31,874 nucleotides of DNA from Heterotrichella gracilis (taxonomy: Eukaryota > Sar > Xanthophyceae > Tribonematales > Xanthonemataceae): assembly GCA_032358255.1 (NCBI GenBank), contig JAULBX010028061.1, positions 1 through 31,874 on the forward strand. The letters are read 5' to 3'. Position 1 is the first letter of the stretch. Every line of letters starts with the position of its first letter. The notes under the pieces are model-generated. The model ran no database searches. It saw nothing but the letters and a program-made list of their open reading frames with translations, and was not told the DNA's origin. Below are positions 1-25,709 of the stretch, in pieces. Position numbers and translations under genes: made by a program.

Positions 1-3000
1 TATGGGGGCTGGGCGCGCGTGGCGGCAGCGGTTGCCTCCGAAAGGGCAAACGTGGCGGTGAATGGGCCAGACGTGCTCCTGTTGGATGCAGGTATTTTTT
101 ACTTATTGTACTTAATTTAGTTGTACAATCCGCATTCTATGTACGAGGGTGATAATGGATGCCAGACGTCCTCCTGTAGGATGCAGGTGGATTGTTTATT
201 TATTATTATTTTTTGTTCCTTTTTCATCGATATGTATGTCAACATATCCCTGTTGGTTGCAGGTAACAAGGCCCTGCATGCTCACACGTGCACCCATGTT
301 CAACCCTACCAGTCTGAGACCAGTGCTGAAACCTTAACACCCTACACCTGACAACCTGTGTACACCGTACACACAACCTGCAGTGAAGCTCAACGCAGGC
401 ACGCCCTGCTGTTGCGTGACGAGCCGCCGCGACGCCATACAATGGCCGGCAATATATGTACAGACATGCACCACTGGCACTACCATGGGTACCTAACATT
501 GGGGTTCATATTATGTTCCCCAGGTGACGTCGGCATCGGAGCCCTGAACCCTAAACCCTAGGTACCTGACGTTAGGTTCACGTGTTGTTCCCCAGGTGAC
601 GTCAGCATTGGAACCCTGTGGGACTTCCTGTACAAGGTGTCCCAGGAGCCATGGTACCAAACCACCTTCGGATTCCAGGCAATGGTAAGCATTCAAATAT
701 GCCAGTGATTTCTCGTGATTTCAGGTTGCCAGTGATTTCCCGTACATGGTTCCGAACCCTTGTTGGGCTTGCAGGCAATGGTGAGGTTGGAAAATTCAAA
801 TTGCTCCCCGTACGTGGTGCCAAACCACATTTGGCCGCCGCAAGTTGCAGGCAATGGTGGGTTTACACGCATGTCGGTGTCATTAAGGGACAGGGTGTTC
901 ACAACAGGAGTGGGCGCTGGCCTCATTTCCTGTTGTGTAGCAGATGTATGGCTTGAATAACAAAATGCAGCGTACCCATTGCAGCGCAACTTCAGCTAAA
1001 GCTTCAACTGTAAGCGTGCAGACGCTGGGAAGCCACCTGCCTATCTACACCATGAAACCCTAAACCTTAAGTACCCTACATACCCTACGCATGAAACCCT
1101 AAACCTCTCATCCCTGTGCGCGCAGACGCTGGGCAACCACGAATTAGACAGCGGGCCAGCACACCTTGCCAAATACGCTCTGAGACCGTAAATGCCCTGC
1201 TCGTGAAACCCTAAACCCCTCACCCCTGTGCGTGCAGACGCTGGGCAGCCACAACTGTGACATAGGGTCGGGACACCCAGCCGATTAAATCATCAATATT
1301 ATTAAACCCCAAATCCTAAACCCTAACTTTGCATGTGCAGACGCTGGGCAACCACGAGTTTGACGGCGGCCCAGCACACCTTGCCAACTACATCAAGCAG
1401 GTGGGCAAGCTGGCAGGCGCAAACTACGACGGCAACCCCAACGGCACCTACCCCCTCCCCCTGCCCTCCCTGGAACCCGATGCGGGGGCGCCACCTGTCA
1501 AGATCCTGGCTGCCAACATCATCACCACCGATCCAGCGTTCACCCAGGACCTGATCGCGCCTTACATCATCATCCCACTCAGCAACGGCATCAAGGTAGG
1601 GTTTGAAACCCGTGGCACACATCTCACCGGGATCCCCAGAATCATAATTCTTGCAGTGTTTGTGATGTGAAAATTGCATAGTTTTTACTATCTAAAATCT
1701 CGAAGTGTTCAAAATCCTACTTCAATGGTGTTTATAACCTTAAACCTCGAAGTTTTTAATAATCATACACTCCAACAGTGTGCTGTACGCCAAAGCGAAA
1801 CTCTAAACAGCCCTCTATCCTAACCCATCAATGCCTTGACAGCTCTTAAGGCTAGCTCTCCATGTGTACAAGTGGGTTGGTTTCCCCTACATGTGGATTT
1901 GTTCCATGTGGTCGAGACCCTAAACCACAACTCCACAAACTGGAAAACCTTTGTCCACAACTGGTTTGGTTTTCCCTGCAGGTGGGTGTGTTTGGCCTGG
2001 TCACCACCGAGACCCCAGGGATCTCCTCTCCCGGACCCTTTGTCACATTCATGGACCCCATCGCAACAGCCCAGGCCACTGTCGCCAACCTGACTGCCAT
2101 GGGCATCAAGCACATCATTGCGCTCACCCACCTGGGTACGAACACAAACCCTTGATCAGAACCCTAAACCCTAAATGACTAATCAAATGACTAAACAGAT
2201 GATTAAATTACTAAATGGTTACAAATGGAAACAAATACAGGCCAGGATGCTGCTTGTCAAGTGTGCAGCCAGTGGGCCGACGCCTTTCAAAGCAGCCAAA
2301 CACGGCAGGCGAGTATACTCACTTGCCAACCAACCCTCTCATGAGATAGCTTGCATCACGGCTGCACCAACGGGTGTCAGCAACGCAGGTTATTCAGGCC
2401 ACACAGGGTCACTGCCTTGCGGCGCAACAGTTGCTGTTGACAGCCGTCCGCGTGTGCGCAAAAGTTGCTGCCCCCGGGCTCTGGAGGATGGCACCTTCGC
2501 CAGGGAATGCATGCCAGTGTTTAGGGTAATAACTGCTGATGCGGCCTTACCGCCGGGACGCGTGTATTACACTGCGTCGATGACTCATCATTTGATTGGC
2601 CATGTCTCCATGTGTTTCGATCTAATCACTTCAATGCCCCTCGTTCTCTTGCAGGCATGGACGATGACGTGAAGCTGGCCCAGGCAGTGGATGGCATCGA
2701 CCTCATCATCGGCGGCCACTCACACACATTCATCGCAAACGCACCAGTGGTGCTCAACGTAAGGCTTGCAGCTGGTGCATCCCCTTTTTTCATTTTGTTC
2801 ATGCTATTGCATCCCAGTGGTGCTCAACGTAGGGCTCCTGGCAGGTCGTGCTTCCCATTTTAAAATACATTGTGTATTCTTTTCTTTGCTGTTGCATATA
2901 CTCAGAGCACCTGCCTTAGGGTCTGTTTACAGGGTGTTGGGGTTCAGGGGAACCCTAGAAGCTTATATGCGCCTGCACGCACTGGCTAGAGCCGGGTCAG

Positions 3001-6000
3001 AGGGTTTAGGGTTTAAGGTGACCCTGGTCCCTGCACCCAATGACTGGAGCCGCGTGCGCAATCCTCCAAATGTGCCATCAGGTTATTGGTTGTCACCCAC
3101 TGCATTAGCCTTTGGTCCCCATGTTGATCTGTGACTTATATATGCATGCGTGTGTGTGTTAGTTAGTTAGTTACATGCATTCCAGCAATACAGCCAGATT
3201 AGCAATCGGTCTTGCATATGCGGCGCCACGCAGCTCTTTCCTGGCACTGTTTGAAAACACAGATTCAAATATTGATGTGTACAATCATATTCACCACTGC
3301 ATTAGCCTTTGGTCCCCATGTTGATTTGTGACTTACAAATGTATATGACATTGTGTTCAATCATGTCCGTGCAGACTGTTGGTCCCACTGTGACACGTGA
3401 CTCATTCAAGCATGCATGCATTGTTTATAGTTATTTTGATTTTACCGTAAGTTTCTTTTTTAAACTGCTGGTTCCATTGTGACACGTGACTTATTCAAGC
3501 ATTCATTGCTTATTCCTCCTCTTTGTATAAAATCTCCTCTATTTTTCCATTTTCAGACCGCTGGCTCCACTGTGAAACGTGACTTCTTTCAAGCATGCAC
3601 TCATTGTTTACTCCTTCTCTTTTTAAAATCTCTCCCCAATCTTTTCATTTTCACGCTGTTGGCTCCACTGTAACCCATGACTTCTGCAAACATGCATTCA
3701 TTGTTTATTATTTCCCCTTAATTTTTTTCCTTTGTTAGATATTCACTACTATTTTCCACTTTCAGACCGTTGGCTCCAGTGTGACCCGCGACTTCCCCTT
3801 CACCGTCACGGGTACCACCACCCAAACCTACAGCTACCCCTACGTGGTCAACAACACAGCCACAGGCAAGGGAGTACCCATCGTGACAGCATACTGCTAC
3901 TCCAGGTGGGTCATGCAAGGGTTGGTTGCAGGGTTTAGGGTATTAATTTTAGGGTGATTAGGGTATTTGGGTGCCCATCATCACTGCATATTGCTACTCC
4001 GGGTGGGTCATGCAAGCAGGGAGGTGTTGCTAACAGTGGATAAGACGTTCTTGCAAGTCATTGCATGCAGCTAAAAAGATGCAAGGAAGGAAACAAACGG
4101 GCGCAGTGCACTGCCGGTGCTAACATGTAGTATGTGAACGTAAGTACCTGCGCGGTGGCGGTGCTGTGCTGCATTGCGACACGCTGTGGCTGAGTTGCCA
4201 GGCTCATTCGTAAATAGTATTATTAATTGAATGCATTGCTCGTGGATGGCTCATACGTACGTGACATGTTCTTCCAGCATCACAGTACAGCCACATGCAA
4301 AGCAAAAAGACAATAGCAAATTCATAAAGCACCACCACGAATATCAACGGATGACCTGCTGCCTTCTTGCAACTGAACATGCCCCGGGGCCCTACATGGA
4401 CCATGCAGGTACCTGGGCAAGCTCATGTCCACCTGGGATGCTGAGGGCAACCTGCTGAGCTGGGAGTCTGGAAGCAGAAAAAATAAGGGGGGGGGGGGAA
4501 ATTGCAAGCCAAAAACTGCAATGCAAATGGCAAAGGACGCGCTGCAACCCGCTGCAACCGCTGGGCCATTCCAGCTAACAATCAGGTAGTGGCAAATAAA
4601 TGTTGTATTCATCTGTCTGTGTACGCACCCTGCAGGTACCTGGGCAAGCTGATGTCCACCTGGGATGCTGATGGCAACCTGCTGAGCTGGGATTCTGGCA
4701 GCGGTCCCATCCTGCTTGGTGGCACCAACTCCTCCAACCCAGTGGCCAACGACCCCTCCATCAAGGCGCGGGTGGATGTGCAGTTCCAGCCCCTGGCGGC
4801 GCTCAGCGCGCAGACTGTCGGTGCGTTCCCAAGGGTCAGGGTTTAGGGTTTACCATGCTCTTGGGTGGAGGGTTTACAGCGGCCCCCAACAGCGCTCAGC
4901 ACGCAGACTGTTGGTGGGTTTCCGAGACCAAACTTAGATAACTTCTAGTTGACATAGGAGAGTTGAATTGGAAGACCTGCTGAATCGATCTGCGTGGCTG
5001 TATGTCTAATGGACAGTGCAAAGCAGTGTGTGTTGCGCTGCAGCTACTTTGCTTTCACGGTACACGCCAGTCATTCATTCATTTGCTTGTTGAGGATTTG
5101 TCCCCCACCATTGATGCCTGTCCCATGCGTTTCCGGATCTGCCCCCTGGCCCACTGCACGGCGCCGGAGGCTCTGCCGCTGTACTCTGTTGAGGGACATC
5201 TACATAAATACGTGTTGTTGAGAATATAATCAAACTAATTATTATGTGGTCCCCCCGCCAGGCGCCGCCGCTGTACTCTTAATGAGGGACTACTCCAACG
5301 AGTCCATATTAGGACTTCATCTCGCATAATATGTAGTTTGTTTACTAATATATTTTTTTGCCCCACCGCCAGGTGTTGCCGCTGTCCCCCTGGTGCGGGA
5401 CTACTCCAACGAGTCCAACATCGGCAACTCAATAGCAGACAGCATGGTGTGGCTCGCACAGAAGCGGTTGGCAGTTAACCTGTACCCAGCAAACATCCCC
5501 ATCATCGGCATGCAGAACTCGGGGGGCATCAGGGCCAACCTGGCGGCGGTGAGTGGAAACCCTAAACCCTAAACCAGCAAACATTCCCATCATCGGCATG
5601 CAGAACTCGGGTGGCATCCGCACCAACCTGCCAGCGGTGAGTGGGCACAGGAACCCTAAACCCTAAACCCTAGGCGCAAACTGGCACTGGTACCTTAAGC
5701 CCTTATGGTCACCAACCGTAGGCTCACACACGGCACAGAAACTCTACACCCCATGCTTGGACTGAGCACAGGAAGCCTGAAATCCCTAATTTCAAATGCC
5801 TGGCAGGAGTGAACCCTGCATTCACTCGCCCACAGGGAGCCAACCTGTCTTGCTCCACAGCTGTGCCTCCGTAACCCTAAACCCTAACCACAGCTGTGCC
5901 TCCGTAACCCTAAACCCTAAACCACAGCTGTGCCTTCATAACCGCATTGGTTGCCGTCATGCACCCACTGCATGGTACTGCTAGTACCCCTATGGCCCAT

Positions 6001-9000
6001 AAACCTTGAAGGGTTTCTGCACCAAACCCTACACCCGAGTCATGGTTGGCCCAACGGAGGCCTCCCCTGCAGGGCACCAACACCCATGGGTTGTCCTCAC
6101 CTTGGCTCCCAACCCAATATATATGTATTTGGCATTACTAACATACATCGTGATACGCATTAAAAGTACTATTCGTGCGTCAATTCTGCCCTTACCTTGG
6201 TGCAACCGTCACCTACGGGTCGGTGTGAGCGTGCTGTCCTTTGGAAACAAACCCTAAACCCTATTCAATAAACCCTAAACCATAGCTCCCCACCCTGCAG
6301 GGCACCATCACCTACGGGTCGGTGGTCAGCGTGCTGCCCTTTGAAATAAACACTTAAGCATAATCAATAAACCCTAAACCCTAGCTCCACTTCCCTGCAG
6401 GGCTCCATCACCTATGGGTCGGTGGTGAGCGTGCTTCCTTTTGGGAACACACTTGCGGTGGTCAATGTGAGTGGTGCAGCGATCAAGCCCGGGATGGAGT
6501 TTGTGGTGGGGGATACTAACGGCGCATCGCCCAAGTTTGCACAGGTAGGTTGATTCATTTTGAAACGTGTCAGCTGTCACTGGAGTGAGCATTAAACACT
6601 CATAGCGCCTAATTTGTGGCCCTGCAGCTCTTGTTGATGTGAAAAACTTGTAAATTGGAATCGTAATTGTAAAATGCAATAGGTCACTGTGGCCATTGCT
6701 GTTCCACATGTCCCTGCAGCTGTGATTGTAATTGTAATTGTAATTGTGTTGTAAAGGCAATGTAATAGGTCACTGTTGCTAATGCTGCTCCACTCCCCCC
6801 CGCAGCTGTCCAACATGCGCATCGGCTACAACCCCACCGCCCCCTCCGGCTCGCGCATCTCCAAGATCGAGGTCAAGAACCCCGTCACAGGACTGTATGC
6901 CCCCCTCGACCCCACCGCCTACTACCCCATTGCCACCAACAACTTCATGGGGATCAGCGGCGGGGATGGGTTTTCGTTCCTGTCAAAATCCCAGCTTTTG
7001 CTGAATGACCCCACCACCCAGGACAACATCTGGGCGCAGTACATTGAGCAGTTCACGCCTATCAATCCCCCCCTGGAGGGGCGCGTCATCAGATGCGATG
7101 CAGTGCCGGCCAACCCGCTGTGCGTGGTTCCCCCACCCTCACCCCCCCCAAGCCCACCCCCACTGGCCCCCTTCAAGGTCACCTTCCTGCACATGAACGA
7201 CATCCACGGCAGGGTGCAGCCCCAGTCCTCGTCCTTCTCCACCGGCAACGCCAAGGGGCAGTGCGGCGTGAACGACACAGCTGACGTGGCTTGCTATGGG
7301 GGCTGGGCGCGCGTGGCGGCGGCTGTTGCCACCGAAAGGGCAAACATGGCGGTGAATGGGCCAGACGTGCTCCTGCTGGATGCAGGTAATTTGTTTTACC
7401 TAATGTCCGATTTAAATTACTAATTTAAATGTGGATCTCAATTCTTTACTGATTGTACTTATTTGAATTAAGTAAACGTGGCGGTGAACGGGCCATGGCA
7501 GACTTGCTCCTGTTGGGTGCAGGTAATTGTACTGATTTGTAAAATGTAATTTATTGAAATTACTGTAAATTCGAATTTTATGTATTGTACCTACGTACCT
7601 GACATGTGGTTCACACGCTGTTGCCCAGGCGACGTCAGCATCGGCACGCTGAACCCTAAACCCTAGGTACCTGACATGTGGTTCACATGCTGTCCCCCAG
7701 GTGACGTCAGCATCGGCACCCTGTGGGACTTCATCTACAAGGTCTCACAGGAGCCATGGTACCAAACCACATTCGGATTCCAGGCAATGGTGAGCATGCA
7801 AATATTCCAGTGGTTTCCAGTGATTCCAAACTTCCCGTGATTTCCTGTACATGGTACCAAACCATTGTTGGGCTTCCAGGCAATGGTGAGTGTGCGAAAA
7901 TTCCAGTGGTTTCCTGTACATGGTAGCAAACCACGTTTGGATTTCAGGCAATAGTAAGTACATGGTATTCCAGTAGCCTCCCGCACACGGTTCCAGTGAT
8001 TTCCCTTCCAAAACCATTGTTGGGGTTAGTGTAAAAACCAAAAAATGTAGTGCACCCATTGCGGTGCAACTACAGCTAAAGCCTCGTCTCTAAGCGTGCA
8101 GACGCTGGGAAGCCACGAGTCTGTCGGCGGCCAGCACTCCCAGCCAACTACATCATGGAGCCCTAAATACCCTGCACGTGAAGCCCTAAATCCCTGTCCA
8201 TATGCGTGCATGCCGACGCATTATTAAACCCTAAACCCTGATCCTTTGTGTGCACAGACGCTGGGCAACCACGAGTTTGACGGCGGCCCAGCACACCTTG
8301 CCAACTACATCAAGCAGGTGGGCAAGCTCGCAGGCGCAAACTACGATGACAACCCCAACGGCACCTACCCCCTCCCCCTGCCCTCCCTGCAACCCGATGC
8401 GGGGGCGCTACCTGTCAAGATCCTGGCTGCCAACATTATCACCACCGACCCGGCGTTCACCCAGGACCTGATTGCTCCTTACATCCTCATCCCACTCAGC
8501 AACGGCATCAAGGTGGGGGAAAACAAAAAGTGACAAGCCCTTTGCTGGCCTGCAAAACCCTTTGGAAATCCTGACTGTGCAAAAGGGTGGGGGCCCAAAG
8601 GATGAGTGGCGCTCCCTTCATCGCGTCCCTCAGGGTCGAATACATGACTTAAAAACCATAATGACCATCATATTGACAGTGTTTTTCTCAATCGGATTTG
8701 TTTTGGCAATTGTTTGGATTTGAACAAACTGGTAGTTATTCGTACAACGCTCAAACCTTCACAGCCCTTTTTACTCCACGGTGGCAACTGGTTTCACCCT
8801 GTGCAGGTGGGCGTGCTGGGCCTGGTCACACCAGAGACCCTAAAACCCTAAACCCTAAAACTGGGACCCTGGGACCCTGGGACCCCATTGGCAACTGATT
8901 CAACCCCTGTGCAGGTGGGTGTGTTTGGCCTGGTCACCACCGAGACGCCCGGCATCTCTGCCCCCGGACCCTTTGTGACCTTCATGGACCCCATCGCAAC

Positions 9001-12000
9001 AGCCCAGGCCACTGTCGCCAACCTGACTGCCATGGGCATCAAGCACATCGTGGCGCTCACCCATCTGGGTAAGAACCTAATCCCAAACCCTAGACCTAGA
9101 CCCTAAATTTAGACCCCAAACTGTAAACCCTGACAGCCATGGGCATCAAACACATCATAGAACTCACCCATCTGGGTATGATTGATTGTTGGGGAGTGAT
9201 TGCGCAGGTTTCTGGGCACAGTGACTGTATTGCACCATCATTTCTAGACCAAGATGCAAAGAGGCTGCTGCTTTAAAAGCTACTGCCTGTTACTTATGTA
9301 ATGGCTGCTGACACTTGCGACAATGTGTCCCCTGAATGGATGAAAACTGTAACCACCATGACGAGGGCTTTGATGCTCGTGGCAACTGTGCATGCACACT
9401 GCAGTTTCCTCGCCTAGTCTGAACTAAAAGGCATTTCTGTGAACACCCAGAGGTTACTCGCAGAGATCTTGCCTCCAGTCCAGTTCAACTCCAGCTCATA
9501 TTTGCTCCAAATATGTATCCCAGGCATGGACGATGACGTGAAGCTTGCCTAGGCTCTGGGTGGCATCCATCATTGATCAAGCTTGCTGTGACTGATCTGG
9601 ACAAAATGGCATTTCTGTGACTACTAGTGGTCTTGCTCCACGCCTGGCTCAGGGGTTCAATGTTGGGTCATAACGTATGTTTTGTGTCCCAGGCATGGAC
9701 GATGACGTGAAGCTCGCCGAGGCAGTGGACGGCATCGACCTCATCATCGGTGGACACTCGCACACATTCATCGCCAACGCGCCAGTGGTGCTCAACGTAA
9801 GGCTCGCACCTGTGGCACTGACTGTAGCAACCAGCATGTCCCTACCAATGTACTCGATTGTAGCAAATCACATGTACAATGCAAGGGTACCTGCCAATGG
9901 ACAGGCCAAGCTTGCACCTGCGCCTGTGCAGTACAGGGTTGGGCGGGTAGGGGCCTTGGAACTCACATGCGCACATGCTTTGGTGGCTACCCCGCAATAA
10001 TATATCGATTTGCATCTTCTTTAAGTAACAATTTTCTGTTTATTTATTTGCAGACTGTCGGCTCCACTGTCACCCGCGACTTCCCATTCACCGTCACGGG
10101 TACCACCAACCAAACCTACACCTACCCATACTTGGTCAACAACACAGCCACAGGCAAGGCGGTGCCCATCGTCACAGCATACTGCTACTCCAGGTGGGTG
10201 GCGAGGGGATTCTAGGGTCAAGAGATTAGGGTAATAGGGTGCCCATCGTGACTGCCTGCTGCTACTCAAGGTGGGTGGTGAGGGGATTCCAGGGTTTCAA
10301 CTTGAGGGCCAAGAGTTTAGGGTTTTAAAGTGCCCATCGTCACAGCATACTGCTACTCAAGGTGGGTGATGTTGGCTTGGAAGCTTGCAGGCAGCAATCC
10401 TGCGTTCCTAAACAGCTGCACTTGTTTAACGTTTTACTACTACCATCATCCTCTATATATACTATTTATTTCATTGTGTTTTGTCTGCCCACACGCAATG
10501 CGGGTACTTGGGCATTGCCAAGCTCATGTCCACCTGGGATGCGGATGGCAACCTGCTGGAATGGGGCTCTGGGAAGTGGAGAAAAGAAGGAAAAGAGCTA
10601 AATTTCAAGCTAACAAAACGCTATACAAATGTAGAACGCATGCGACGTGACCCGCCGCAACCGCTGGGCCATTCCAGGGCCCATTATCACAATGGAAAAA
10701 AACGCTGGCCCCGCTCCATGCAGGTACCTGGGCATGCTCAAGTAATAGCCGGCATCATTGTCATTATCACCCAAGCTTACTATTATATTAAAAGTAATTG
10801 TTGTTTTCATTTTTGCCCTTACACCGTGCAGGTACCTGGGCAAGCTGATGTCCACCTGGGATGCTGATGGCAACCTGCTGAGCTGGGATTCTGGCAGCGG
10901 TCCCATCCTGCTTGGTGGCACCAACTCCTCCAACCCAGTGGCCAACGACCCCTCCATCAAGGCGCGAGTGGATGTGCAGTTCCAGCCCCTGGCGGCGCTC
11001 AGCGCGCAGACTGTCGGTACGTATGTCAGCTGTGGTGGTTGAAGTAAACCGCGACCATGGTTTATCATGCGACCATCCCACCTTAGGCGCTGTGGACTGC
11101 GCCTATGGGTAGGGTTTAGGGTGTGGATGTGTCCTTCCATCAAGGCGCCCATGGATGTGCACTTCCAGCCACTTGGCGCCCCTCAGCGCGCAGACTGTCG
11201 GTAGGTTACCAATGGTTAGGGTTTAGGGTGTACCAGTTCCAGCGGGCGGAAATAAGTGGATGAGTCAGCGCACTGCCTGTTGGTATGGGGGTTAATGCAC
11301 AGCAGTGTGGCTCTCAGCGCAAGACAGCTTGGACAGGTACAAGGGTATTCAATGTTGACAGTGCGGTGCCCGCGGCTGGACACATCGAATCACGTCCACC
11401 CATGGTTGGGGCTTTAATTAATTCATTTGTTTTGTGTCCCCACCGCCAGGCGCTGCCGCTGTCCCCCTGGTGCGGGACTACTACAACGAGTCCAACATCG
11501 GCAACTCCATCGCAGATAGCATGGTGTGGCTCGCACAGAAGCGCGTGGCAGCCAACCTGTACCCAGCAAGCATCCCGATCATCGGCATGCAGAACTCGGG
11601 TGGCATCCGGGCCAACCTGCCAGCGGTGAGTGGGCAGACCCTAAACCCTAAACCCTAGGTGTGAATTGGCACATATCCTCAAAACCCTAGGCACATAAAT
11701 GGCATGGGAACTTGGGAGGCATCCGGGCCAACCTGCCAGCGGTGAATGGAAACCCTACACCCTAAACCCTTTAGGCGCAAACTGGCACTGGTACCTTAAG
11801 CCCTTAGTACCATCAACCATAGGCACACAAACGGCCCAGAAACCCTAAACCCCACACAAATGACCCTAGGCGCACAAATTGCACACAAACCCTAAACCCC
11901 ATGCTTGGAATGAGCACAGGGAGCCTGAAAGCCCCAACCTGGAATGCCAACCTGGCAGAGGTGAGTGAGCTCAGTAACCCTAAACCCTAAAACATCCATT

Positions 12001-13112: not shown

Positions 13113-14364
13113 GTGACTTTGAAAAAAATGATGAAAGGAAGGAACAAAATGCCCCCACACTGTGGCACAGCGGCAAACCGCAGCTGGGCCAGCAATGCTG
13201 TGATAGTGCTGCTGTTGGCGGGGAATTGCAGGCAGCCCATATTGGGCATGACCTCACACACTTGCCATGTATGACTGAACTTCCTAGTAGGGTTCAACCT
13301 AGTATACAAATAGGGAGTAGACTGTCACGCTGGTAGTTGCAACTCTCATGTAGGTCCAGGACTTCCCCAGCGCAAGCGCAAGTACAAAATTTGCGAATTG
13401 TGGGATCTGTGGTCCCATTGTTTTGTCGTTCAATAGCACTAGTACTAGCCGCAACGTTTGGCTCCCAGACTCTGAGGGCCTTGAGAATTTTCACCCCTTG
13501 TAGAGAAACAACTCGAGACCTTGGCCAGGCCAACTGGTGCACTGGTGCGTGTGCATTTCCTTGTTTAACAGTTGAATAGTTGTAGAGCAATTGCCCCTGC
13601 AGCGCACGCATGACATTGTGGCCACTGTGCCCTGGGGAATTAAATTGTACATGCATGCATGGGTTATAACTAATTGGGATGGGTGTGAAGCATTGTAACT
13701 ATTGAAGAGATACTTGCGGCAGGGCTTGCAGCGCATTGATCAGGCAGACATGGCATAACGTTTCTAGTTACATTGTTGCGTACCAAACATAGCAGGAGTA
13801 GCTTATGTGTCCAGGCCTGGCCGGATGGCATCAATTGATTATCCTTTATACTAGAAAAGGCGCGCCATACAATGCACACATGGACCCCTGGCCCCACCTC
13901 AATGCTTTGAGGGTTTTTAAAAAGCAACATCACGAAACCCCAGGCCCACACCCTTATATAACACTCAAAGCATTCCCTGGTATACGAGTGTCTGTAGTTG
14001 ACCACCCATGTTACAGTACCCTCCTCACATTCGCCATAACGTCGCACCCTTAGGGTTTATAAACCCTAACCCTAGGGTTATCATTCCTACAGCCCAAAGT
14101 CAGGCTGTGCAAGCTCCACCGTGCGGCCCCCACGCACACATCCCCGCCCCAATCACCTTCCAAGATAACAAACGCATGACAGAAGACCCGCAACCCAGCA
14201 GAGGCAAAAACCCATACAATGCAACGCCCTTTCGGCCACACGTGTACCAACCACCCCCTTCACCACCGCTGTCCTCCACCCCATCACCCCCCCACAACCA
14301 TCCAATACCCCCACCCCTTTGCCCTCCCCCCCGCCACCCCCTAGAGCGCAACCTGCAGCGATAA
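13113..14364. other. Intergenic region between convergent genes; no gene seen
   Basis: This holds the 3' ends of the nucleotidase gene (left) and the Spb1 gene (right). TGTAA, the usual green-algal polyadenylation signal, occurs on the plus strand at 13694-13698; its complement TTACA at 14011-14015 could serve the Spb1 transcript. Part of the right side (14260-14345) is a C-rich tract. Open frames here are short and resemble no family. Confidence 0.55.
14050..14080. repeat. Back-to-back telomere-heptamer palindromes
   Basis: TTAGGGTTTATAAACCCTAA (14050-14069) is a perfect 20-bp palindrome, and it overlaps TAACCCTAGGGTTA (14067-14080), a perfect 14-bp palindrome. Heptamers thus face outward and then inward within 31 bp, in the gap between convergent genes. 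Confidence 0.9.
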
Positions 14365-17300
14365 TCACCGCCTGCCGCCCCCCTTGCCCTTTGCCCCGCC
14401 GCCCCCCTTGCCCCCCTTCCGCTTTGCCTTCTTCTCCGCCTTCTTCTTCTGCTTGGAGTTGACCTGGCGCTTGTCTGCGCGCAGGCGGCCGTCCAGGGGG
14501 GGGCCCTTGCGGTTCTGCTTCTGCCACCTGGTCTCCTTGGTCTTGCCCTTGCCTGAAACAAGCAAATAAACCATTGTCAAAGGATGTGAAATACATAAGG
14601 AATATGCGTGCAGAGTACGTTTTTTGTGCTCTTTTTTGTGCTCTTGGTCGTGCCCTTGCCTGCAATAAACAGATAGATAAAGTAAATGGATACAGCGAAG
14701 AGCCATGCGCGTGGTCCAAAAACCCACCGCACCATGTTACCTCCCACCACCCGCCATGGCACCACTTCCAGACCCCACCAATGCACCCACCACCAGCCAA
14801 AGAACACCAGCACTGCCTCTCATGCACCAACCTAGCGAAACCCTACTTTGCTGTGTGCCTTTGCGTACACACAGAACCCTTAACCCTAAACCCTAGGGTG
14901 TTCCCTTACCTCCTTTGCCGCGCGCCTTTGCGTACACCTTCTCAATCTCCCGCTGCTTGCCCTTGGCTGATAGGTCGTCCTGCCCAGAGATGGCCTCTGC
15001 CTTGGCCTTGGCAGCGGTTAGGGAGGCCTGCAAGGAGGGGGTTTAGGGTTTAGGGTTTGGTCGTTAGGGGTTAGGGTTCTTAGTTTAGGGTTCCTTGGCA
15101 GACAGGTCGTCCTGCCCGGGGATGGCCTCTGCCTTGGCCTTGCAACGGTCAGGGATTTTTAACGTGAGGGTATAGAGTTTAGGGTCCTGCCTGGGCCTTG
15201 GCAGCGGTCAACAACGAATGCGGTGGGGGGCTGTTCAGATTTTAGGTTATAGGGTTCTGCCTTGGCCTTGGCAGCGGTCAGGGATGCCTGCCAGAGGTAG
15301 GAGGCGGGCGAGGGTGGGGACTTCAGTACATAAAGTTGTACAAGCATGGGCAGTGCATGGGCAGTGCTGGTCTTCAAATTACTTATATGTACGAGTAATG
15401 TAACGTGTACCTTGATACGGTACTGCAGTTACAGGCGCTTGCGCGCCTTTGTCCTCCACCACCAGGTAGGGTTATAGGGTAGGGATTTACAGCTTGTCAC
15501 CAAAGGTTAGGGTTTCTAGGGTTTCCCCCTCACCTGCAGGTGCTTGCGCTTGCGCGCCTTTGCCTCTACCACCAGATAGGGCTTACAGGCTAAGGTTTAC
15601 ACCTTTTTACCATAGGTTAGAGTTTCTAGGATTTCCCCCTCACCTGCAGGCGCTTGCGCTTGCGCTCCTTTACCTCCACCACCAGGTAGGGTTCACATGT
15701 TTTACAGCTTGATGCCACATATTAGGGTTTCTAGGGTTTCCAGGGTATTGGCCTCACCTGCAGGCGCTTGCGCTTGCGCGCCTTTGCCTCCACCACCTTC
15801 TTGATTGGTCGCGCATCGATGGCCTTGAGCTCAGCCTTCTCAGCTTCGACCTCCTCCTTGCTCACGATCTCGGGGGCCCTGCAGGGTTTTGGGTGCAACG
15901 ATTAGGGTTTAGGGTGCGGATCCTGCAGGGTTGGGCACCACACTGGTTCGTCCATGCTTTATTACGGCGTTATAATTAGGCCACGTTCACACAAGGGTAA
16001 TATTATAGTAATAGGCCCTATTATTAATAATTTATTGTCTTATTACCCTTGGCAGTACAGCCTCTTCAGAGCAGTCAGCCTTGCACACCCCATTATGCCG
16101 AGCCATTTTGGGTTAATTCAATTTGTAAAAGGGTTGGCGCGATGGCATTGGGCCTGGGGGTCAACGCGCACACACCGTTTGCCTCTTGCTTATATTCATA
16201 CACAATGCTAATTTGCTAAAGATTCGTGTAAGAATATTACTGGGACTACTGTAGGCCCGCGTGGCCAAAGCTGCTGCTCTGTTTGGGAGGCGTAAGCCTC
16301 TGTTGTCATCACAGGCATGCCGTGGATGGAGTGCATCCACCAGTGGCGGCCATAAGCTACACGCTCCCACAGGTTGCAATCCATACGCCACCGCCAATTG
16401 AGCCCCTTACCGCTCTGGGGTAATTAACCCAAACCCTAACGCCTAACAGGTGTGGTGCACTTAGTGGAGTGCTGCCCAAGTGGACCCCAACTTTGAACCC
16501 TAATCCTAAACCCTTGGCCTGCGGCACTGATGGCGGCCGCACTGCTGACATGCAGCCCAGCAAGGCGGACCGCACTGCTCCGGACTGCCTGTAGGGCCCC
16601 CTAAGGGTGTTAAGGCTTAACACCCTTTCATGTTAACCCCGGTACCTACTCTATGCACCCTCAGCCTGGCTGGTGACTGGCGTGTACCCCACGCTTCGGG
16701 TGCACAGGCAGCACAGCAGTGCCCTCAGCAACCATGATTTGAGCAGGGGTTTGGGCACCATGCATTTCCCGGGCGGCAGCCCAACCTCTCCTCTAGACTT
16801 GGTTCACACTTGAAATGCATGCCACCCTGCCCATTGGTCAGGTACCCTTTGCTGGCAGATACATTAATTTGGTTTTGTGGTGTTGATGGGCATTGTGCTT
16901 GTTTGTACTTTTGAGTTTGTTTGTTTTGTGGTTGGTTGGGTATGTTGGTGGGTTGTGGGGTGCCGAGGACGCGCAGTGCGCGAGCAACGGCCTACCAAAA
17001 ATTAAGCCGTGGGTCCGCCCACTTGGAGCGCCCCATCCGAAGCAGTCCGCAGGGTGCAAGGCGGACCGCAACGAACCGTCCACTGCCTACGGGATCGCAG
17101 TGAAACGCCGGCCAGGTAAGTATGATTATCCTCTGAGACTCCTTGGGCTATATACGGGGTGGGGGCTGGGGCCTCCCAGCCAAAGTTATGGGTGCCGAGT
17201 CACCCACACGAACGGCGGCACGGCGGTGCTGCGGAGACCCCGCCCCAAGTTGACTGGGCGTTTTGCTCGGCGATGACGCCTAAGACCTTGTCTAGTTGCA

Positions 17301-20300
17301 GATAAACGTGTTATTCTGCTACGGAGGAGTTGGATTGCGTACCTCATGTGCTTGTCTTCGTCATCCATGAACCACTTTGGGAGGTTGTCGTCATGGAAGG
17401 CAAACCTGTTGTAGGCATCGTCCACGATGTCCTGCTTGTCCTTGCGCTTGAGCATCCGCCGGGCCACCGCCAGGATCTCTGCCTTGGCGTTGTTGTCCAG
17501 GGTCTCGAAATCGGTGTCTGACTCGGACTCCGAGTCGGAATCGGAGTCCTTGTCGCTGTCCGACATGGGCACCACCTGTGACAGGAAAAGCATGCTGCAG
17601 TGAGCAGTGGATTTTGGAGGTGCAGGAGCACAACAGCTCATATGAAGTGTAACAAACTACTGAGAAGGTTAATGAACAGACGTACAGTACTGTAGGACAA
17701 ACGGTGTGCAGTACACAGCGCCATGCCACCCCATGCCACCCCATGCCATACTTGCCATGCCACGCACAGTGCGCACCCATAACCACTCCAACCTAGCTAG
17801 AAAAGAGTGTGTGCATTTACAGTGGCCAACGCAAGCACCCTCAAAATTCAGCACCACTGCCTGCAGACCCACTAGTTCTTGCACCGTCTAACAACAAACC
17901 CTAAACCCGAAACCCGTTCATGAAGCGCTTGCACCACCGCACGTCAAAGCCTAAACCCTACGCCTCGCGTGCGCCCCCTCACCTCAAACTCCGGCTCCAC
18001 CGGCCCCTTCTTGTTGCGAGCACCCAGGACAGCCTTGGCCCCAGAGGCACCCACACCACCGTCCTCCTCCTCATCCTCTGCAGCTGCTGGCTGCTTGCCA
18101 CCAACCTTGGGCTTCTTCAACGGCCTGCAGATGCAATTGCAAGGTCACGCAGTGAACGGCTGATATTGTAGCCAACACAGAACATATGATACATTTTAGC
18201 ACCCAGCACACACAGCCAGAAAATATCCAAAAAATGATGTACTATTCTTCTTATAAAATTTAGGAAGAATGGAAAGGTAACGCTCTCACTGAGAGTCTCA
18301 GCCAGCCACAACCTGGGTCCCCTGATCAGTGGCTCGTTAGCATAGGCTTACCCTCTGCACACCCTTCCCAACACTTTCTCCCCCACCCACCTGGCTGCGG
18401 CTTCCTCCCCATCCTCGTCCTCCAGCTCCGCACCCTGGAAGATGTCCTGGCTGAACCACTGCTGGGCCAGGGCCTCGCTGGTGGTGGGCCGGCCAACCCT
18501 CCTAGGGTCCAGATCCACAAGCAGGCCACCACCCTCCTCCTGCAAATGGAGGGAAAGTTTAACATTAGCGCAATGAACTGAACCCTGAAACCTGGGGATG
18601 TTATCGTTTAGGGCAATGGAATGCTGGAATACAGGTAGATAACTAGATAAGGGCAATAAAAAAAGCCGTGAACCCTAAGGGATGTTACAAGGTATGGGGC
18701 TGGCGCCTGGCAGCGGATTTTGAAAGACAGAGGCGCATTGGGGAGGGTTGAAATGCACCTGTGGTTATCAGCCTGGGAGCATTGCACAGGCCTTCGAAAC
18801 CAAACTGATACATCCAAAGCCTTGATGGTGATTTCATGGAGCCCTAAAATCCTGTGCACACCCTCCTCCCTACACCCTCAATTGTAGTTTCATCATTAGG
18901 ATATCATTTCATTTCATTTCACGGACCTGCAACCCTCCAAGGTGGTTTTACCAAGTCCCAAAACCCTTACCTCCTCCTCGCTGTCCGCCCGCTGCGCCTC
19001 CCCTGCCTCGCCTTCCTCCCCACTGCTCCCCTCCCCATCCTCGTCCTCCAGCTCCCCCCCCTTGCCCAGCCGTTTCCTGCGCTCCCTCTCCGCCTCCTCC
19101 CGCTGCCCCCGCCGCTTCTTGTAGTGGCTGTACAGGTCATCCAGGTTCTCCTCCATCTCACGGTTGTAACGCTCGTCGTCATCGTCTACAGGGAAAAAAA
19201 CACCGCATTTATTGGTATTGTTATCATTTGCACATCAGCAATCAGCCCTGCACAAGCTTGCGCCACCCAACCCTGTCCTGACATTGCTCGCATTTAGCCG
19301 TATTCCAATGCACACCATGCCGCAAAATGCTGGGATACAGCGCACAGTGCAATTTGCATCATTGCCTGGGTACACACCGCTGGTTGGGGCTGTAGGGCTG
19401 CTTGGCCCATAAATATGCTCTACTGCCATGCAACCTTTGTATAGCAGCATGACCACGGCTGCACATTACCATCATCAGACAACCCCCATGCACTCAAACC
19501 CTTTACCCCAACACACGTATTCTCCCTGCCCTGCCCTGCCCCCTGCTTCATCCCTACCTGAGCCGCTGTCCTCCTCTGACTGGGCCCCCACCAAGTCATT
19601 GTCGCTGTTCCGATCATACTCCTCAATCTCCTCGGCGGTAGGGGCATCCGCGTCGTTGATGTGGTCAGACGCGCCCTTGCCCTGCGGCAAAGCATGATGG
19701 GGCACTGTCGGGCACTGTTACAACCATGGTACCCTGATCGAGTACATGTATCATGCTACTTCCAATAATTGCCCACCCATAGTGAAACTAGTCCACAACA
19801 CAATGACAGTAGTCAACAGCACGCCCAGCCACAAACCCGAGCCCAACAGCACAGGCAACCCCGTGGAGTCCAGACCTTGTCAGCAACCCCACCACCAGTG
19901 GTTCAGCTGATGACAGCCGGAAATGCGTTTCTGTTTGTTTGTTTGTTTGTACCGCCAGTGCAAGCACACCACCACCCACCTTGAGCGACGACAGGGAGAA
20001 CAGCTGCTCATCATTGGGCGCATTCTCATCCTCGCCGATGCCCTCGGCCTCTGCCAGCTGGGCTGCTCTCACGCGTGCCCGCCCTTTGGCTTCACGCTTG
20101 GTCTTGCGCTCACGCTTGGCCTGGCGGGACAGGCGCTCCTGCAAGGGTTTGGGCAGGGTTTGTCTAGGGTTTATGTGGGGTTGACAAGGGTTTGAATTTG
20201 CATGTGCGTTTGCTCTGGCGCTCCTGTAAGGGTTTTGGACAGGGTTGACAGGGAGCTGTGTAGGGTATGACCAGGGTTTTGGGTAAGGCGTAGTGAAGGG

Positions 20301-23300
20301 TGAACAAGCGCGTGAGACTATTGTGGGATTTTATGATGTTGCTTGCCGAGCATCCCGTTTTTCAAGTAGACCAGCGATTCAAAAATGCACCATTGGAATC
20401 AAATAGATGATGTGCGTCCTCACAGCCACAGAAATTCTCTACTTTTATTACCGACATGCACAATGCCCCATTAGAATAAAGTAGATGATGGGCGTCCACA
20501 GCGACAGGAATTTCACAAGTCCCCATATATGTTATTATATAATAACAGAATAATGATGGAAAGCCCGCCGCAGTCCCTCTTTGGTTGATACAAGGGTGCA
20601 TGTTCCCTCCCCCCACCTTGATATCCTCCATCTCCTTGAGCAGCTGCTCCTCCTCGTCCACCTCCTCTTCCTCATCACCCCCCTTGGCCACATCCACACC
20701 GCCTGCCTCAGCCTTCTTCTTTTCCTTCTCGGCAAGATCAACTGCTGCGCGCACCTTGAGGCGCCTACAAGGGGGTGGCGATATGGAAAGTAAGAAGGAG
20801 GTAATGCCGCATGGCCAAAAGACACAAGGATCTTGAGCCCACTATAATAATTTCGTTTTCGTTTCACTTCTGCCCACATGCCGCCGATTGCAGCCACAGC
20901 TATTGCCCCAACCCCAGCCATCGCCACCGTCACCCACCACAACGATAGACACAACACACCCAGCTACCCTCACCATTGTATTCAGCTGCGCCCCAGCACC
21001 TGCAGGTCCCCGCACAACCACAGCCACAGCCACAGCCAAACACACCAAAATCCCATTAACAGCAGAACCACAACCGCCCCCTTTAGACCCCCCCTCCCCC
21101 CTCCCACACCATTTGATCAGCTGCTTGAACTCGCTGCGCCCCAGCACCTGCAGGTCCTCGCACAGCGCAGCAATCTCCTTGGTGGTGGTGGGGTGCGAGC
21201 GGATGAGGTCAATAACCTCAGCACCACCCAAACCCTCTTCATCATCCCCACCATCAGCCTCCACCTCGCCCTTCATGTCAATCCTGGACAAGGTGTAGGG
21301 TTTTAGGGTTTAGGGTTGGGGTGGTGCATGTGACTGGCCTGGCAGTGGGAGTGCACATGATGCCATGTCCATACCCTAACCAACACATCTACAACCGCAG
21401 CCTGCTCACATCCAATCCGCAGCATTATCACCCTGACGTGTCCGCACAACATGCACACCCCAATATCAGATCAGCGTCACATAATGCATGGCATGGGAAA
21501 TGCTTTCAACTCAACACAAACCCTACTACTCCCTTGCCAACCCCACCTTGTGAACCGCCCCACAAACCCTGAACTGTGAACCCTAAACCCTACAATTTCC
21601 TTGCCCGCCCCACCTTGTGAACTGGCCCACCAGCCCCACCAGGTTGGTCGCCATGATAAACCCTAAACCCCAAACCCTAAACCCTACAATTCCCTTGCCC
21701 GCCCCACCTTGTGAACTGGCCCAGCAGCTCCACTGGGTTGTTTGCCATGACAAACTCTAAACCCTAAACCCTAAACCCTACAATCCCTTTCCCGGCCCCA
21801 CCTTGTGAACTGCCCCAGCAGCTCCACCGGGTTGGTCGCCATGACAAACTTGGCCACCGGCAGCGCCTTGTGCGTGGTGCTCAGCCCCTCCTCGTACCCC
21901 TCCCTGTGCTTCTTCTGCTTCACCTTCATCTTGATCAGGGCGTCGGGGCCCATGATCTTGGGGGCATCAGCAACCTCCTGGACAGGGGGGTAAAAAGGAA
22001 TATTGTTCATTTCACCTGCACCTTGATGAGGGCACTTGGGCCTGTAATTTGGTGGCGTCGTCAACCTCCTCCCTAGTGGAAAATGGAACTAATATATTAC
22101 ATATCCTTCACTCCTCGGAATAAATTACTCCAAACACAACTAGCAAAATCCCTTCCAGCCCTAGCCAAAACAATAACCAAGGTATGCTCCCAGAACCCTC
22201 CCAAAACCCCAGCCCAAAACCCTAGCAAAAAACCCGTGCGACCGCACCTGGAACAGCACTTTTGTGTCCAGCAGGCGCGGGTCGATCTTGGCGGGCGCCT
22301 TGTATCCCATGCACACCACGAAGATCTCGGCGGACGCGTTACGCGAGGCGGTGGGCTTGGTGGCCTCCACCTTGCGGAAGAGCTGGTTAAAGCAGTACAG
22401 CAGCGCGTTGTAGTCCTTGGACCTGAGGGGTGGGGATGTTGGTACTTTTAACTACTTTATTAGCTACTTTAGTCGTTAGTTAGAGTGGTCTCTGCCTTTG
22501 TGGAACTGCGGGTTGAGGCAGTACAGCAGCGCGTTGTAGTCCAGGGACCTGGGGTGGGGAGTGGCAGTACATCAATTCATATAATAGTTAGTCAGATGTT
22601 AGTTGAGGTGGGGTGGGTGGGTGGGTGGGTGGGGAGTGGGAGGTGGGGCAATCACAGATCCCGTTGGGTGCCAGAAAACACCACCGCCAGGTTGAATACC
22701 TCCAGCACCAGCCAGGACTGGAAATATATTCAGTCATGATACCGTCACATGTTCGCCCCGTCGATTCTTAGACACATGAGTTCGTGGTTGGATACCCGAA
22801 GCCACAAGGGCATTTAGTCAAAATACAGGATCACACACGCACCTGAACACCTTGGTGACAAAGGTGCCGTTGGGCGCCAAAAACTCCACCGCCAGCTTGA
22901 GCGCCTCCAGCACCAGCCATGACTGGGAGTAGGCCTCCGAGGACCACACACCACCCACGTTTGGGGCACCATCATGGACCACCACATCCAGCATGTTGCC
23001 CGCCGCCTCCTTCTTGAGCGCCTGGCGGCACTTCTGGGTGGTGATGTCCCCGACGAGGGTCTTCACCCCCCGTATGGCCTTGATGGGCACCAGGTCCACC
23101 CCGATGATGAGGCTGCTCATGGGCATGGTCTTGGCCGCCACCTGGCACCAACCGCCTGCAGGGGCGGAGTATGTGTGTGTGTGGGTGTGGGTGGGTGGGT
23201 TTTGGGGGGGGGTGCACACACGCTCCGTGGCACTCCGCAGCGCCAGTGCGGTGCAGGTAGAGGTATTGAGTGTTGGTAGAGGTATTGAGCGTGCGCGGTT

Positions 23301-25211: not shown

Positions 25212-25709
25212 TCAAACAACCTCAACCTCTTCTTCAGCCTGCAGGAACACATTAATATACAAAGTCACGCAGGACACTTGTAGGCAACCATCCATATTAA
25301 ATGAAGCACCCAAGAGGGACCCAGGGAACTGGTTATTGCAATAATGGGATTTGGGAAGGCAACCCCAGCGTACCAGGTGGGCGAAGAACTTCGTTGGCTT
25401 TGCAGTGTCGTTCTCCAACACGAACTGTACTTTGATTGGCAGGTTTGCTGACAGCTTCTGGCCCTTGAACTCGCTGACGTCTTGCACAACTGTGCCCTCC
25501 AGGCCTTCCAGGTTGAACCCATCCTTCTGCTTGGGTACAGTGTATATGGTCACTGGTGTCTTGACCCGTACTTTCGAGCCATCTGCGAACGCTGCAGTTG
25601 CATTCAGGCGCAAGCTGCGGGAGGAGCTTGGAACTCCCTTCCTCCTGAACGCCTGAGTGTTGCTTGTGAAGGCCATGCATTGCACACTGGGGGCTAGGTG
25701 GGCCATCAT
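25212..25709 (-). CDS. FTRV: Ferredoxin-thioredoxin reductase variable chain, chloroplast precursor
   Basis: Non-catalytic subunit that caps the Fe-S catalytic chain in the stromal enzyme passing electrons from ferredoxin to thioredoxins (family knowledge). Two exons: 25709-25374 (112 codons) and 25238-25212 (AEEEVEVV, TGA); intron 135 bp; 120 aa in all. The mature SH3-like barrel is visible from about residue 46: VRVKTPVTIYTVPKQ, LEGLEGTVV, KGQKLSANLPIKVQFV and the family-typical KPTKFFAHL. The first ~40 residues are rich in Ser, Arg and Ala with few acidic residues, as in a transit peptide. The start is Met-Met; the second ATG is also possible. The C-terminal exon is unusually tiny but phase-correct. 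It is divergent from the PHYHD1-like gene, 606 bp away. Confidence 0.92.
   Translation of the reverse strand: MMAHLAPSVQCMAFTSNTQAFRRKGVPSSSRSLRLNATAAFADGSKVRVKTPVTIYTVPKQKDGFNLEGLEGTVVQDVSEFKGQKLSANLPIKVQFVLENDTAKPTKFFAHLVRWGCLPKSHYCNNQFPGSLLGASFNMDGCLQVSCVTLYINVFLQAEEEVEVV

Follow-up and report, generated by a model that had tools for sequence, protein, structure and literature searches.

Neutral copies of exon edges beside their own exons in the alga Heterotrichella gracilis, probable scars of small tandem duplications

Exon edges in the genome of Heterotrichella gracilis are accompanied by degenerate direct copies of themselves (echoes), each lying beside its own exon, and these copies are confirmed as genuine and present genome-wide. 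They adjoin the original in direct orientation, carry its splice site or stop codon, and in part bear telomere-type repeats in the stretch between copy and original (the joint). They are scars, not an intron class, and probably stem from small tandem duplications (about 50-150 bp) produced where DNA breaks at the margins of coding sequence were repaired.

Introns were drawn from the window (the whole stretch of DNA analysed, 31,874 nt), from a 200 kb sample (C2:1-200000, hereafter C2) and from 50 kb picked via telomere-motif hits, 282 kb being compared overall, with ab initio gene models built on the sequence alone. A strict test, in which each intron was searched for the terminal 40 bp (last or first) of its flanking exons, succeeded in 14 of 36 usable introns of the window, 19 of 200 in C2 and 15 of 54 in the 50 kb set; the window is thus richer than the sample. 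The comparison with shuffled pairings, a check set beforehand, gave no copy in 2900 shuffled edge tests, nor in the 360 of the window, and reverse complements gave none in 580, nor in the 72 of the window. The original prediction had placed acceptor echoes only upstream and donor echoes only downstream of their exons, an arrangement upheld by the far exon ends ("wrong side" test), which yielded 0/470, and 0/63 in the window. A looser search, counting echoes that reach to within 12 bp of the splice site, returned 35 echoes in 18 of 38 window introns and found echoes in 24 of 208 C2 introns; gene 1 bears them in 13 of its 19 introns and gene 2 in 5 of its 17, so that the statement that most introns contain them applies to the first gene and fails for the second. 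Self-comparison of the window gave 35 close direct duplicates and no inverted ones, and C2 holds 45 direct local duplicates against 1 inverted (0 and 0 in shuffled sequence). To call the introns "built from" such copies was an overstatement, the stretches from echo to own edge covering 4069 of 80,953 intron bp in C2 and 3956 of 18,007 in the window.

The two genes of the window (Table 1) are, as had been claimed, unrelated and on opposite strands, one of 5'-nucleotidase type (+) and the other an SPB1/FTSJ3-type methyltransferase (-), and both give open frames when spliced at their outermost sites. Gene 1, for which Pfam, run on the second domain only, gives PF00149 and PF02872, comprises two repeats of ~7 kb (A and B) with nine homologous intron pairs. 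At its acceptor echo 4400..4475 the gene finder had called an exon (4409-4585), which was removed by hand from the model. Scored singly, most of the places originally listed are strong (acceptors 1126, 3557, 4409, 5262, 6301, 8817, 9524 and 12353; donors 5574-5636, 10330-10361, 15534, 15644, 21614 and 21708) or moderate (524, 3375, 3464, 3653, 10239-10280 and 21547). Three (1022, 1238 and 741-856) are weak alone, scoring under the largest null value, yet all three align with homologous places in the second repeat of gene 1; the null is itself inflated by the paralogous repeat, which brings the strong place 1126 close to it too.

Table 1. Genes and exon-edge copies in the window.
Positions	Strand	Feature	Remarks
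1..13112	+	Gene 1: two tandem 5'-nucleotidase domains, one open frame	ab initio model, two exons hand-corrected
154..204	+	Donor echo, exon ending at 91	
514..546	+	Acceptor echo, exon starting at 596	moderate (524); joint with CCCTAAACCCTA
741..856	+	Weak donor echoes, exon ending at 684	clearer in second repeat at 7850-7958
1016..1292	+	Three acceptor echoes (1022, 1126, 1238), exon starting at 1341	telomere-type sequence separates copies
2814..2837	+	Short weak donor echo, exon ending at 2758	matches repeat B exon end; below echo threshold
3372..3684	+	Four acceptor echoes, exon starting at 3766	joint without telomere-type sequence
3971..4016	+	Donor echo, exon ending at 3905	TTTAGGG-type joint
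4400..4475	+	Acceptor echo, exon starting at 4636	93% identity over 76 bp
4892..4923	+	Donor echo, exon ending at 4820	TTTAGGG-type joint
5251..5306	+	Acceptor echo, exon starting at 5373	strong (5262)
5574..5669	+	Donor echo, exon ending at 5548	CCCTAAA joint
6205..6343	+	Two acceptor echoes, exon starting at 6401	unit with CCCTAAA
7474..7528	+	Donor echo, exon ending at 7385	
7590..7651	+	Acceptor echo, exon starting at 7701	aligns with repeat A echo 514-546
7850..7958	+	Two donor echoes, exon ending at 7789	
8099..8155	+	Acceptor echo, exon starting at 8258	
8797..8838	+	Acceptor echo, exon starting at 8915	strong (8817); CCCTAAA joint; no counterpart found in same intron of repeat A
9129..9181	+	Donor echo, exon ending at 9068	no counterpart found in repeat A
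9514..9567	+	Acceptor echo, exon starting at 9693	strong (9524); no counterpart found in repeat A
10238..10371	+	Two donor echoes, exon ending at 10193	
10486..10743	+	Acceptor echoes, exon starting at 10832	
11133..11206	+	Donor echo, exon ending at 11016	
11701..11788	+	Donor echo, exon ending at 11625	telomere-type joint
11946..11991	+	Second, weaker donor echo, exon ending at 11625	
12345..12404	+	Acceptor echo, exon starting at 12432	strong (12353); CCCTAAACCCT joint
about 14365..24020	-	Gene 2: SPB1/FTSJ3-type rRNA methyltransferase	ab initio model, predicted exon 23335-23400 removed by hand; PF01728, PF07780, PF11861
15093..15294	-	Acceptor echoes, exon 14910-15027	telomere-type joints
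15423..15683	-	Donor echoes, exon 15758-15878	sites 15534, 15644 and partial third; spacing ~110 bp
21518..21756	-	Donor echoes, exon 21802-21977	sites near 21547, 21614, 21708; 94 bp unit, telomere-type joints
22485..22560	-	Acceptor echo, exon 22248-22422	
22653..22721	-	Copy of exon 22843-23155	begins 16 bp inside donor edge; excluded from the 89 edge echoes

In all, 108 echoes were collected, 89 of them within 12 bp of the exon edge and 19 farther off. Their exon part measures 17-95 bp and their intron part 0 to 60 bp (the search being limited to 60 bp), and the echoed site is shifted by a median of 118 bp (range 53-350); in the youngest 20 (exon mismatch <=6%) the two parts are equally long (medians 37 and 34 bp). 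Among the 89 edge echoes, mismatches at codon positions 1, 2 and 3 amount to 9.4, 9.8 and 18.2%, and 4 of 40 indels keep the frame (multiples of three), a pattern to be expected when an unconstrained copy is compared with an exon under constraint. The earlier reading of tandem duplication across the exon edge, with the outermost copy in use, is supported by the direct orientation, by the neutral decay of the echo and by the exon having stayed intact. The lengthening of introns foreseen with it is also seen, medians being 396 bp with echoes and 315 bp without in C2, and 451 and 280 bp in the other sets. Divergence of copy from original at codon positions 1 and 2 spreads smoothly from 0 to 30% (80 echoes); the echoes differ in age and do not go back to one burst.

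The original prediction had missed that joints hold telomere-type filler. Sequence of the CCCTAAA/TTTAGGG type reaches about ten times background between copy and original, and not beyond the copy: at 60 edges with a single echo, its coverage in successive 10 bp bins is 12.5, 14.3 and 10.3% on the joint side against 1.8, 1.3 and 3.3% on the far side, echo-free introns having 1.0%. Of the 89 edge echoes, 35 have a tract of 10 bp or more in their joint and 54 have none. Tract density in C2 introns is highest next to the splice site and declines away from it (1.92, 1.45, 0.77 and 0.40 per kb), as it does in echo-free introns (1.26, 0.99, 0.75 and 0.32), a measure independent of exon conservation. 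Moreover, tract load and echo load per gene are correlated (rho 0.54, p 0.011, in 21 C2 genes; rho 0.64, p 1e-4, in all 31 genes), and C2 introns hold 0.63 tracts per kb against 0.14 in intergenic DNA (4.4-fold). Tracts near acceptors are, in the sense direction, C-rich by 31 to 1, those near donors 15 to 19. Of 73 joints, 26 carry C-rich tracts only, 11 G-rich only and 1 the order C-G-C; the head-to-head order expected if telomerase had extended both broken ends occurs in none of them, and the placing of G- and C-tracts inside the joints points neither way. Beside gene ends no enrichment of tracts is visible, but the count, 1 within 80 bp of the gene end (4.0 kb of intergenic DNA in C2), is too small for a verdict.

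In the break-repair account, staggered breaks or paired nicks 50-100 bp apart would be filled in and rejoined so that the intervening stretch is doubled, and in some events telomerase, or an end handling of telomere-like kind, may first have added TTTAGGG to an end. Events confined to exons would mostly be lost because the protein is broken, and those spanning an exon edge or stop codon would be tolerated because the frame survives in the outer copy, the remainder being either removed by splicing or placed behind the stop. Introns would hence grow and gain decoy sites as a by-product, through copies without function.

Stop-codon edges also echo, 6 of 35 doing so at best tile positions (all sets), with four alignments spanning the stop, and since nothing is spliced there, the idea of an intron class or of a process bound to splice junctions is not supported. 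Copies peak at coding edges and are far commoner there than in the interiors of introns or intergenic DNA; in C2 they show no significant clustering by gene (p 0.35). The likeliest alternative, though itself rather unlikely, holds that small tandem duplications occur evenly and that only those at coding edges are both tolerated and recognisable, one copy being conserved, without any targeting. It accords with the neutrality of the copies, with the rarity of exon-only duplications (3 clusters in C2), as under selection, and with a gene-end rate per possible placement like that of splice edges (4 exon-plus-intergenic events in C2, about 2.7 expected at the splice-site rate). Yet detection bias, simulated with measured neutral rates, uniform ages and 0.1 indel per substitution, is merely 1.35. 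With 19,097 intron-only and 8041 exon-intron placements, the 26 exon-intron clusters of C2 predict about 46 intron-only ones, and still about 23 if neutral pairs vanish twice as fast, but C2 has 0; its one intron-intron pair among 45 belongs to an array reaching an exon. In the remaining sets, intron-only clusters number 3 and exon-intron clusters 45, and even placement predicts about 45 intergenic duplications in C2, where 1 is seen. With 23-46 intron-only events expected in 200 kb and none found as its own cluster, chance placement and detection bias are insufficient, and the gathering of telomere-type tracts near splice sites in echo-free introns also speaks against even occurrence.

Nor does uniform breakage predict that duplications lying wholly in introns or intergenic DNA should be all but missing, which to that extent weighs against the break-repair account itself. 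GC-rich coding DNA is the first candidate for a cause drawing breaks to coding edges, stop codons included. A more far-reaching form of break repair, which we put forward tentatively, would make coding edges repair hotspots whose broken ends are treated like chromosome ends, with TTTAGGG added, the gap filled and the ends joined; this would be a main route by which introns and 3' flanks lengthen, each event leaving behind a neutral duplicate, open to dating, of a splice site or stop codon.

That echoes are retained for a function, whether as decoy or auxiliary splice sites, as splicing enhancers or as alternative ends of exons, is improbable. Among echoes with an edge offset <=3 bp, GT survives in 31 of 39 and AG in 27 of 37, so that decoy sites do arise, as had been foreseen, but retention does not exceed neutral decay (about 81% for two bases at 10% divergence). 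Nor is there the frame or coding constraint of alternative or mutually exclusive exons: shift remainders of 1, 2 and 0 occur 33, 30 and 26 times, the few frame-keeping indels and the codon-position pattern are those of a neutral copy, the copied site would run into a stop in 75 of 89 echoes, and only 2 of 89 are both frame-keeping and stop-free. Echoes also stand after stop codons. The C-rich bias near acceptors indicates that selection or function may contribute at least to the tracts.

Classical intron gain, in which duplication of an exon piece with AG|GT turns what lies between the two copies into a new intron, is described in Drosophila (PMC2891723) and could fit a few short introns in tandem exon arrays (C2:121209-121332; C7b:1769-1863 and 2005-2102), cases which belong to the 19 echoes more than 12 bp from an edge. 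It is a very doubtful general explanation, since it needs the intron to begin with a copy of the downstream exon and to end with one of the upstream exon; apart from these few possible exceptions, copies of a donor lie after it and copies of an acceptor before it, mostly including the splice site itself. Still less credible is the insertion of a mobile element or an introner family next to splice sites: telomere-type sequence does recur at joints, but the copies are local (none in the 2900 shuffled tests) and no sequence family is shared across loci, only 4 of 73 joints with the telomere motif masked matching anything >3 kb away in the 282 kb compared, all 4 in the paralogous repeat of the same gene. 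An assembly or haplotype artefact, conceivable in a draft of 903 contigs, is next to negligible given the smooth spread of divergence, the codon-position pattern and the peak at coding edges.

Small duplications from break repair have precedents, among them a paired-nick result in plants reportedly due to Schiml in 2016. Fill-in by CST-Pol alpha-primase at staggered breaks is described as yielding small tandem duplications, and the same study notes that a model of this kind has been suggested to account for natural insertions in humans and plants (PMC8355091). The algal copies resemble these in being direct, head-to-tail, close, and tens to about 100 bp in unit, and differ from those described there in lying at coding edges, part of them with telomere-type joint filler, in 24 of 208 C2 introns. 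In mammals, telomerase is reported to insert telomeric repeats at double-strand breaks, with flank duplication at 6 of 130 rodent and 4 of 25 primate interstitial loci (PMC2246262); short tracts at repair joints, sometimes with a duplicated flank, are common to both, whereas in the alga a tract is found at part of the joints only (35 of 89), goes together with a duplication some tens of bp long and, within introns, is concentrated <=60 bp from splice sites. The telo boxes of Arabidopsis and rice also place telomere units within genes, but are reported as enriched in 5' UTRs, not introns, and ascribed to telomerase acting on 3' ends (PMC3022908), whereas the algal motif is longer and its tracts favour introns 4.4-fold over intergenic DNA. 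Direct repeats at intron borders have likewise been linked to break repair, but those described (PMC11782384) are 4-30 bp long and pair the two ends of one intron, whereas most of the algal ones span 50-150 bp and link a single border to a copy within the intron. Known coding tandem duplications tolerated via splicing share the premature stops in the duplicated part; the algal events lengthen an existing intron and, as far as tested, create no new intron position.

If the break-repair account is true, the genome would hold of the order of eleven thousand datable repair scars, a rough figure scaled from 32 echoes per 200 kb of one contig to 68.5 Mb; each scar joins a conserved original to a neutral copy, so that relative ages would be directly readable. 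Their concentration at coding edges, including stop codons, demands a mutational or selective cause. The scars would open two questions to test, the transposon-free growth of introns and the participation of telomerase, or of end handling of the telomere type, in ordinary break repair, and would constitute a natural source of decoy splice sites, graded in age.

Echoes, degenerate direct copies of a splice site and its exon edge inside the adjoining intron, were originally predicted from two genes on opposite strands of the window, with acceptor echoes upstream and donor echoes downstream of the exon; the geometry described is correct and the observation real. When the 40 bp at the end or start of the flanking exon were sought in the adjoining intron, an own exon-edge copy was found in 14 of the 36 introns of the window, in 19/200 of C2:1-200000 (the opening 200 kb of the contig on which telomere-motif hits were first listed, and not a random draw), and in 15/54 of 50 kb chosen for telomere-motif hits, a choice (further contigs C7 and C3) that biases the rates. 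Shuffled edge pairings matched in none of 2900 tests, reverse-complement edges in none of 580, and the opposite end of these exons in none of 470, so that the matches exceed shuffled pairings and the copies do not lie at random sides of exons. Self-comparison of the window returned 35 close direct duplicates and no inverted ones; the null for scoring the noted echo places one by one is inflated by the paralogous repeat.

Gene models came from a small gene finder built from and trained on the sequence itself, seeded with the window splice sites and with consensus donor motifs written in by hand, and ten internal exons shorter than 36 bp (all sets) were merged into introns. Hand corrections of the model errors (see table) entered the frame, domain, protein-match and repeat comparisons; the counts kept the original models. 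The draft genome holding the window comprises 68.5 Mb in 903 contigs, and the window contains two main genes, both readable as open frames if splicing takes the outermost sites and passes over the echoes, two predicted exons having been removed by hand. The best matches of the SPB1 protein, among those listed, are in chlorophyte green algae (Myrmecia, Coccomyxa, Micractinium, Chlamydomonas), the top one with 54% identity over 96% of the protein, and none of the matches listed is near-identical. The two repeats of gene 1 differ at 13.5% of exon third positions (eight exon pairs), whereas introns 3-5 are almost unalignable between them, hinting either at gene conversion of the exons or at very rapid turnover of the introns. 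A dispersed repeat with a (TTAG)n head, one copy of which sits in intron 5 of the first gene 1 repeat, contributes a 22-mer with 167 exact occurrences in the genome (92 and 75 by strand; reversed control 0).

Features of the window, including gene-model errors
Feature	Position	Strand	Description
Gene 1	1-13112	+	Two 5'-nucleotidase domains in tandem, connected by a proline-rich linker; coded by two ~7 kb repeats with intron positions common to both
Gene 2		-	SPB1/FTSJ3-type rRNA methyltransferase
Predicted gene	26350-28260 (predicted exons 27123-28025)	+	Ab initio prediction
Predicted exon	25374-25709	-	Ab initio prediction
AT-rich stretch	30186-30540		ATGCG/CGCAT words frequent in either orientation, in contrast to the remainder of the contig (by eye)
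Dispersed repeat	3160-3260 and 31715-31820		(TTAG)n head
Model error	4409-4585		Retained as exon in the models; read as echo and removed by hand
Model error	9693-9946		Exon overruns its likely end at 9796
Model error	23335-23400		Doubtful predicted exon, removed by hand

The duplications are focused on coding edges. Among 40 bp tiles stepped across the exon-intron borders of C2, a nearby direct copy is most frequent just inside the exon (25/408 at -10); the frequency drops to 4/383 at +40 and climbs once more between +60 and +100, the region occupied by the echoes. The corresponding values are 9/1474 for intergenic sequence, 16/594 for exon interiors and 30/1298 for intron interiors, the last including the echoes themselves, with a single control pairing at or above the threshold anywhere in the table. 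Event clusters in C2 comprise 26 exon-intron, 4 exon-intergenic, 3 exon-exon, 1 intergenic and no intron-only events, and those in the other sets 45 exon-intron and 3 intron-only events, under a clustering that assigns an intron-intron pair overlapping an exon pair to the exon class and so disfavours intron-only events. Counted by pairs, intron-intron cases are 1/45 in C2, where the sole pair belongs to an array reaching an exon, 4/35 in the window and 4/39 in the chosen sets. Since a duplicate can be recognised for longer when its partner is a conserved exon than when both copies are neutral, the detection bias was simulated from the measured rates, and amounts to 1.35-fold. Of the positions drawn at random in the same C2 gene models, 19097 were intron-only, 18714 were intergenic and 8041 were exon-intron, so that beside 26 exon-intron events some 46 intron-only and 45 intergenic ones are expected, or roughly half as many if loss of neutral pairs is also twice as rapid, against 0 and 1 seen. 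Survivorship and detection thus fall short of explaining the coding-edge focus.

Nor is the process tied to splicing, as the original prediction of junction copies implied. At predicted stop edges, tiles match in up to 6/35 (all sets); at predicted start edges they match in 1/33 at inner positions, a weak count, starts being poorly predicted and possibly wrong. Alignments run across a stop codon in four cases (C2:21348, C2:135710, C2:29168 and C7a:10142), and near 10142 in C7:1-20000 GGGTTTAGGGTTTGGG, a TTTAGGG-type sequence, comes immediately after the stop codon, with the whole unit repeated; three of the seven stop-edge alignments are self-matches only and uninformative, those three loci resting on other analyses. 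Gene ends in C2 show 4 exon-intergenic events where placements predict about 2.7, a ratio indicating that splicing is not required. Because echoes also occur at stop-codon edges, a splice-specific process, whether spliceosome, lariat or RNA copying, is rejected as the only cause.

As to what draws duplications to coding DNA, exon GC tracks echo load in the 21 C2 genes (rho 0.63, p 0.002) and in all 31 genes (rho 0.42, p 0.017), as one of five features tried and with p values uncorrected for the five tests; on this correlational evidence, GC-rich coding DNA is a candidate attractor of breaks. A difference in CpG or methylation between exon and intron is ruled out, the observed/expected CpG ratio being similar in exons (0.59), introns (0.50) and intergenic sequence (0.54) and not tracking echo load per gene.

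Once formed, the copies decay neutrally. Of 108 echoes found, 89 extend to within 12 bp of the border, and these mismatch the exon by 9.4, 9.8 and 18.2% at first, second and third codon positions, the pattern of divergence along one neutral branch at the first two positions and along two at the third. Only 4 of their 40 indels are multiples of three, and a stop would be met via the echo site in 75/89, which together with the codon-position pattern rules out translated echoes; 2/89 keep the frame and are stop-free, and the shifts at the echo site leave remainders of 1, 2 and 0 in 33, 30 and 26 cases. Splice dinucleotides survive in 31/39 (GT) and 27/37 (AG), about 81% being predicted from 10% divergence. 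The divergence of 80 echoes spreads smoothly from 0 to slightly above 0.2, so there was no single burst. Some echoes of the two gene 1 repeats align with each other and others were found in one repeat only (for example in introns 3, 4 and 5), which suggests that duplication events continued after the repeat arose. In C7:40001-50000, a tandem array at 1498-2258, with units of about 110-240 bp made of exon and intron pieces, contains several short predicted introns, which may have been made within the exon array.

Some of the joints, the sequences between copy and original, contain telomere-type tracts. AAACCCTAAACCCTA occurs 5293 times in the genome (reversed control 1), and tracts of at least 10 bp have densities in C2 of 0.63/kb in introns, 0.14 in intergenic sequence and 0.04 in exons. 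Such a tract lies in the joint of 35/89 echoes, more than half of the joints being without one. At 60 single-echo edges, tract coverage is 10-14% in the 30 bp that adjoin the echo towards the joint, compared with 1-3% beyond the echo and 1% in echo-free introns, so that telomere-type sequence marks the join of the two copies; in introns without a recognisable echo, tracts are also concentrated at distances of up to 60 bp from splice sites. Within 40 bp of acceptors (introns of C2, C3, C7 and the window), tracts are C-rich on the sense strand by 31 to 1, which we read as selection against G-rich inserts at the pyrimidine tract position because donors (15 to 19) are without such bias; the C-rich tracts near acceptors may act as the pyrimidine tract or the branch region. 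Over the 282 kb compared, the joints share no other sequence family, which rules out a mobile element as source there.

Tandem duplications, with or without filler at the joint, are a known product of repair in which staggered breaks or paired nicks undergo fill-in and rejoining. The machinery found for such fill-in duplication in mammalian cells is CST-Pol alpha-primase, also the telomere-end fill-in complex (PMC8355091), and mammalian telomerase inserts telomeric repeats where DNA has broken, in some cases with the flank duplicated as well (PMC2246262). If broken ends are handled like telomeres, that would explain both the duplication and the filler. In a literature covered by titles and the openings of abstracts, with most subscription papers outside that scope, no description of exon-edge copies with telomere-type joints was found; the component events are of known kinds, and their coupling and coding-edge concentration are without match there. 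Rather than defining a class of introns, the echoes of this genome form a large body of neutral scars of repair that lie at the edges of coding sequence, some of them joined to the original by telomere-type sequence.
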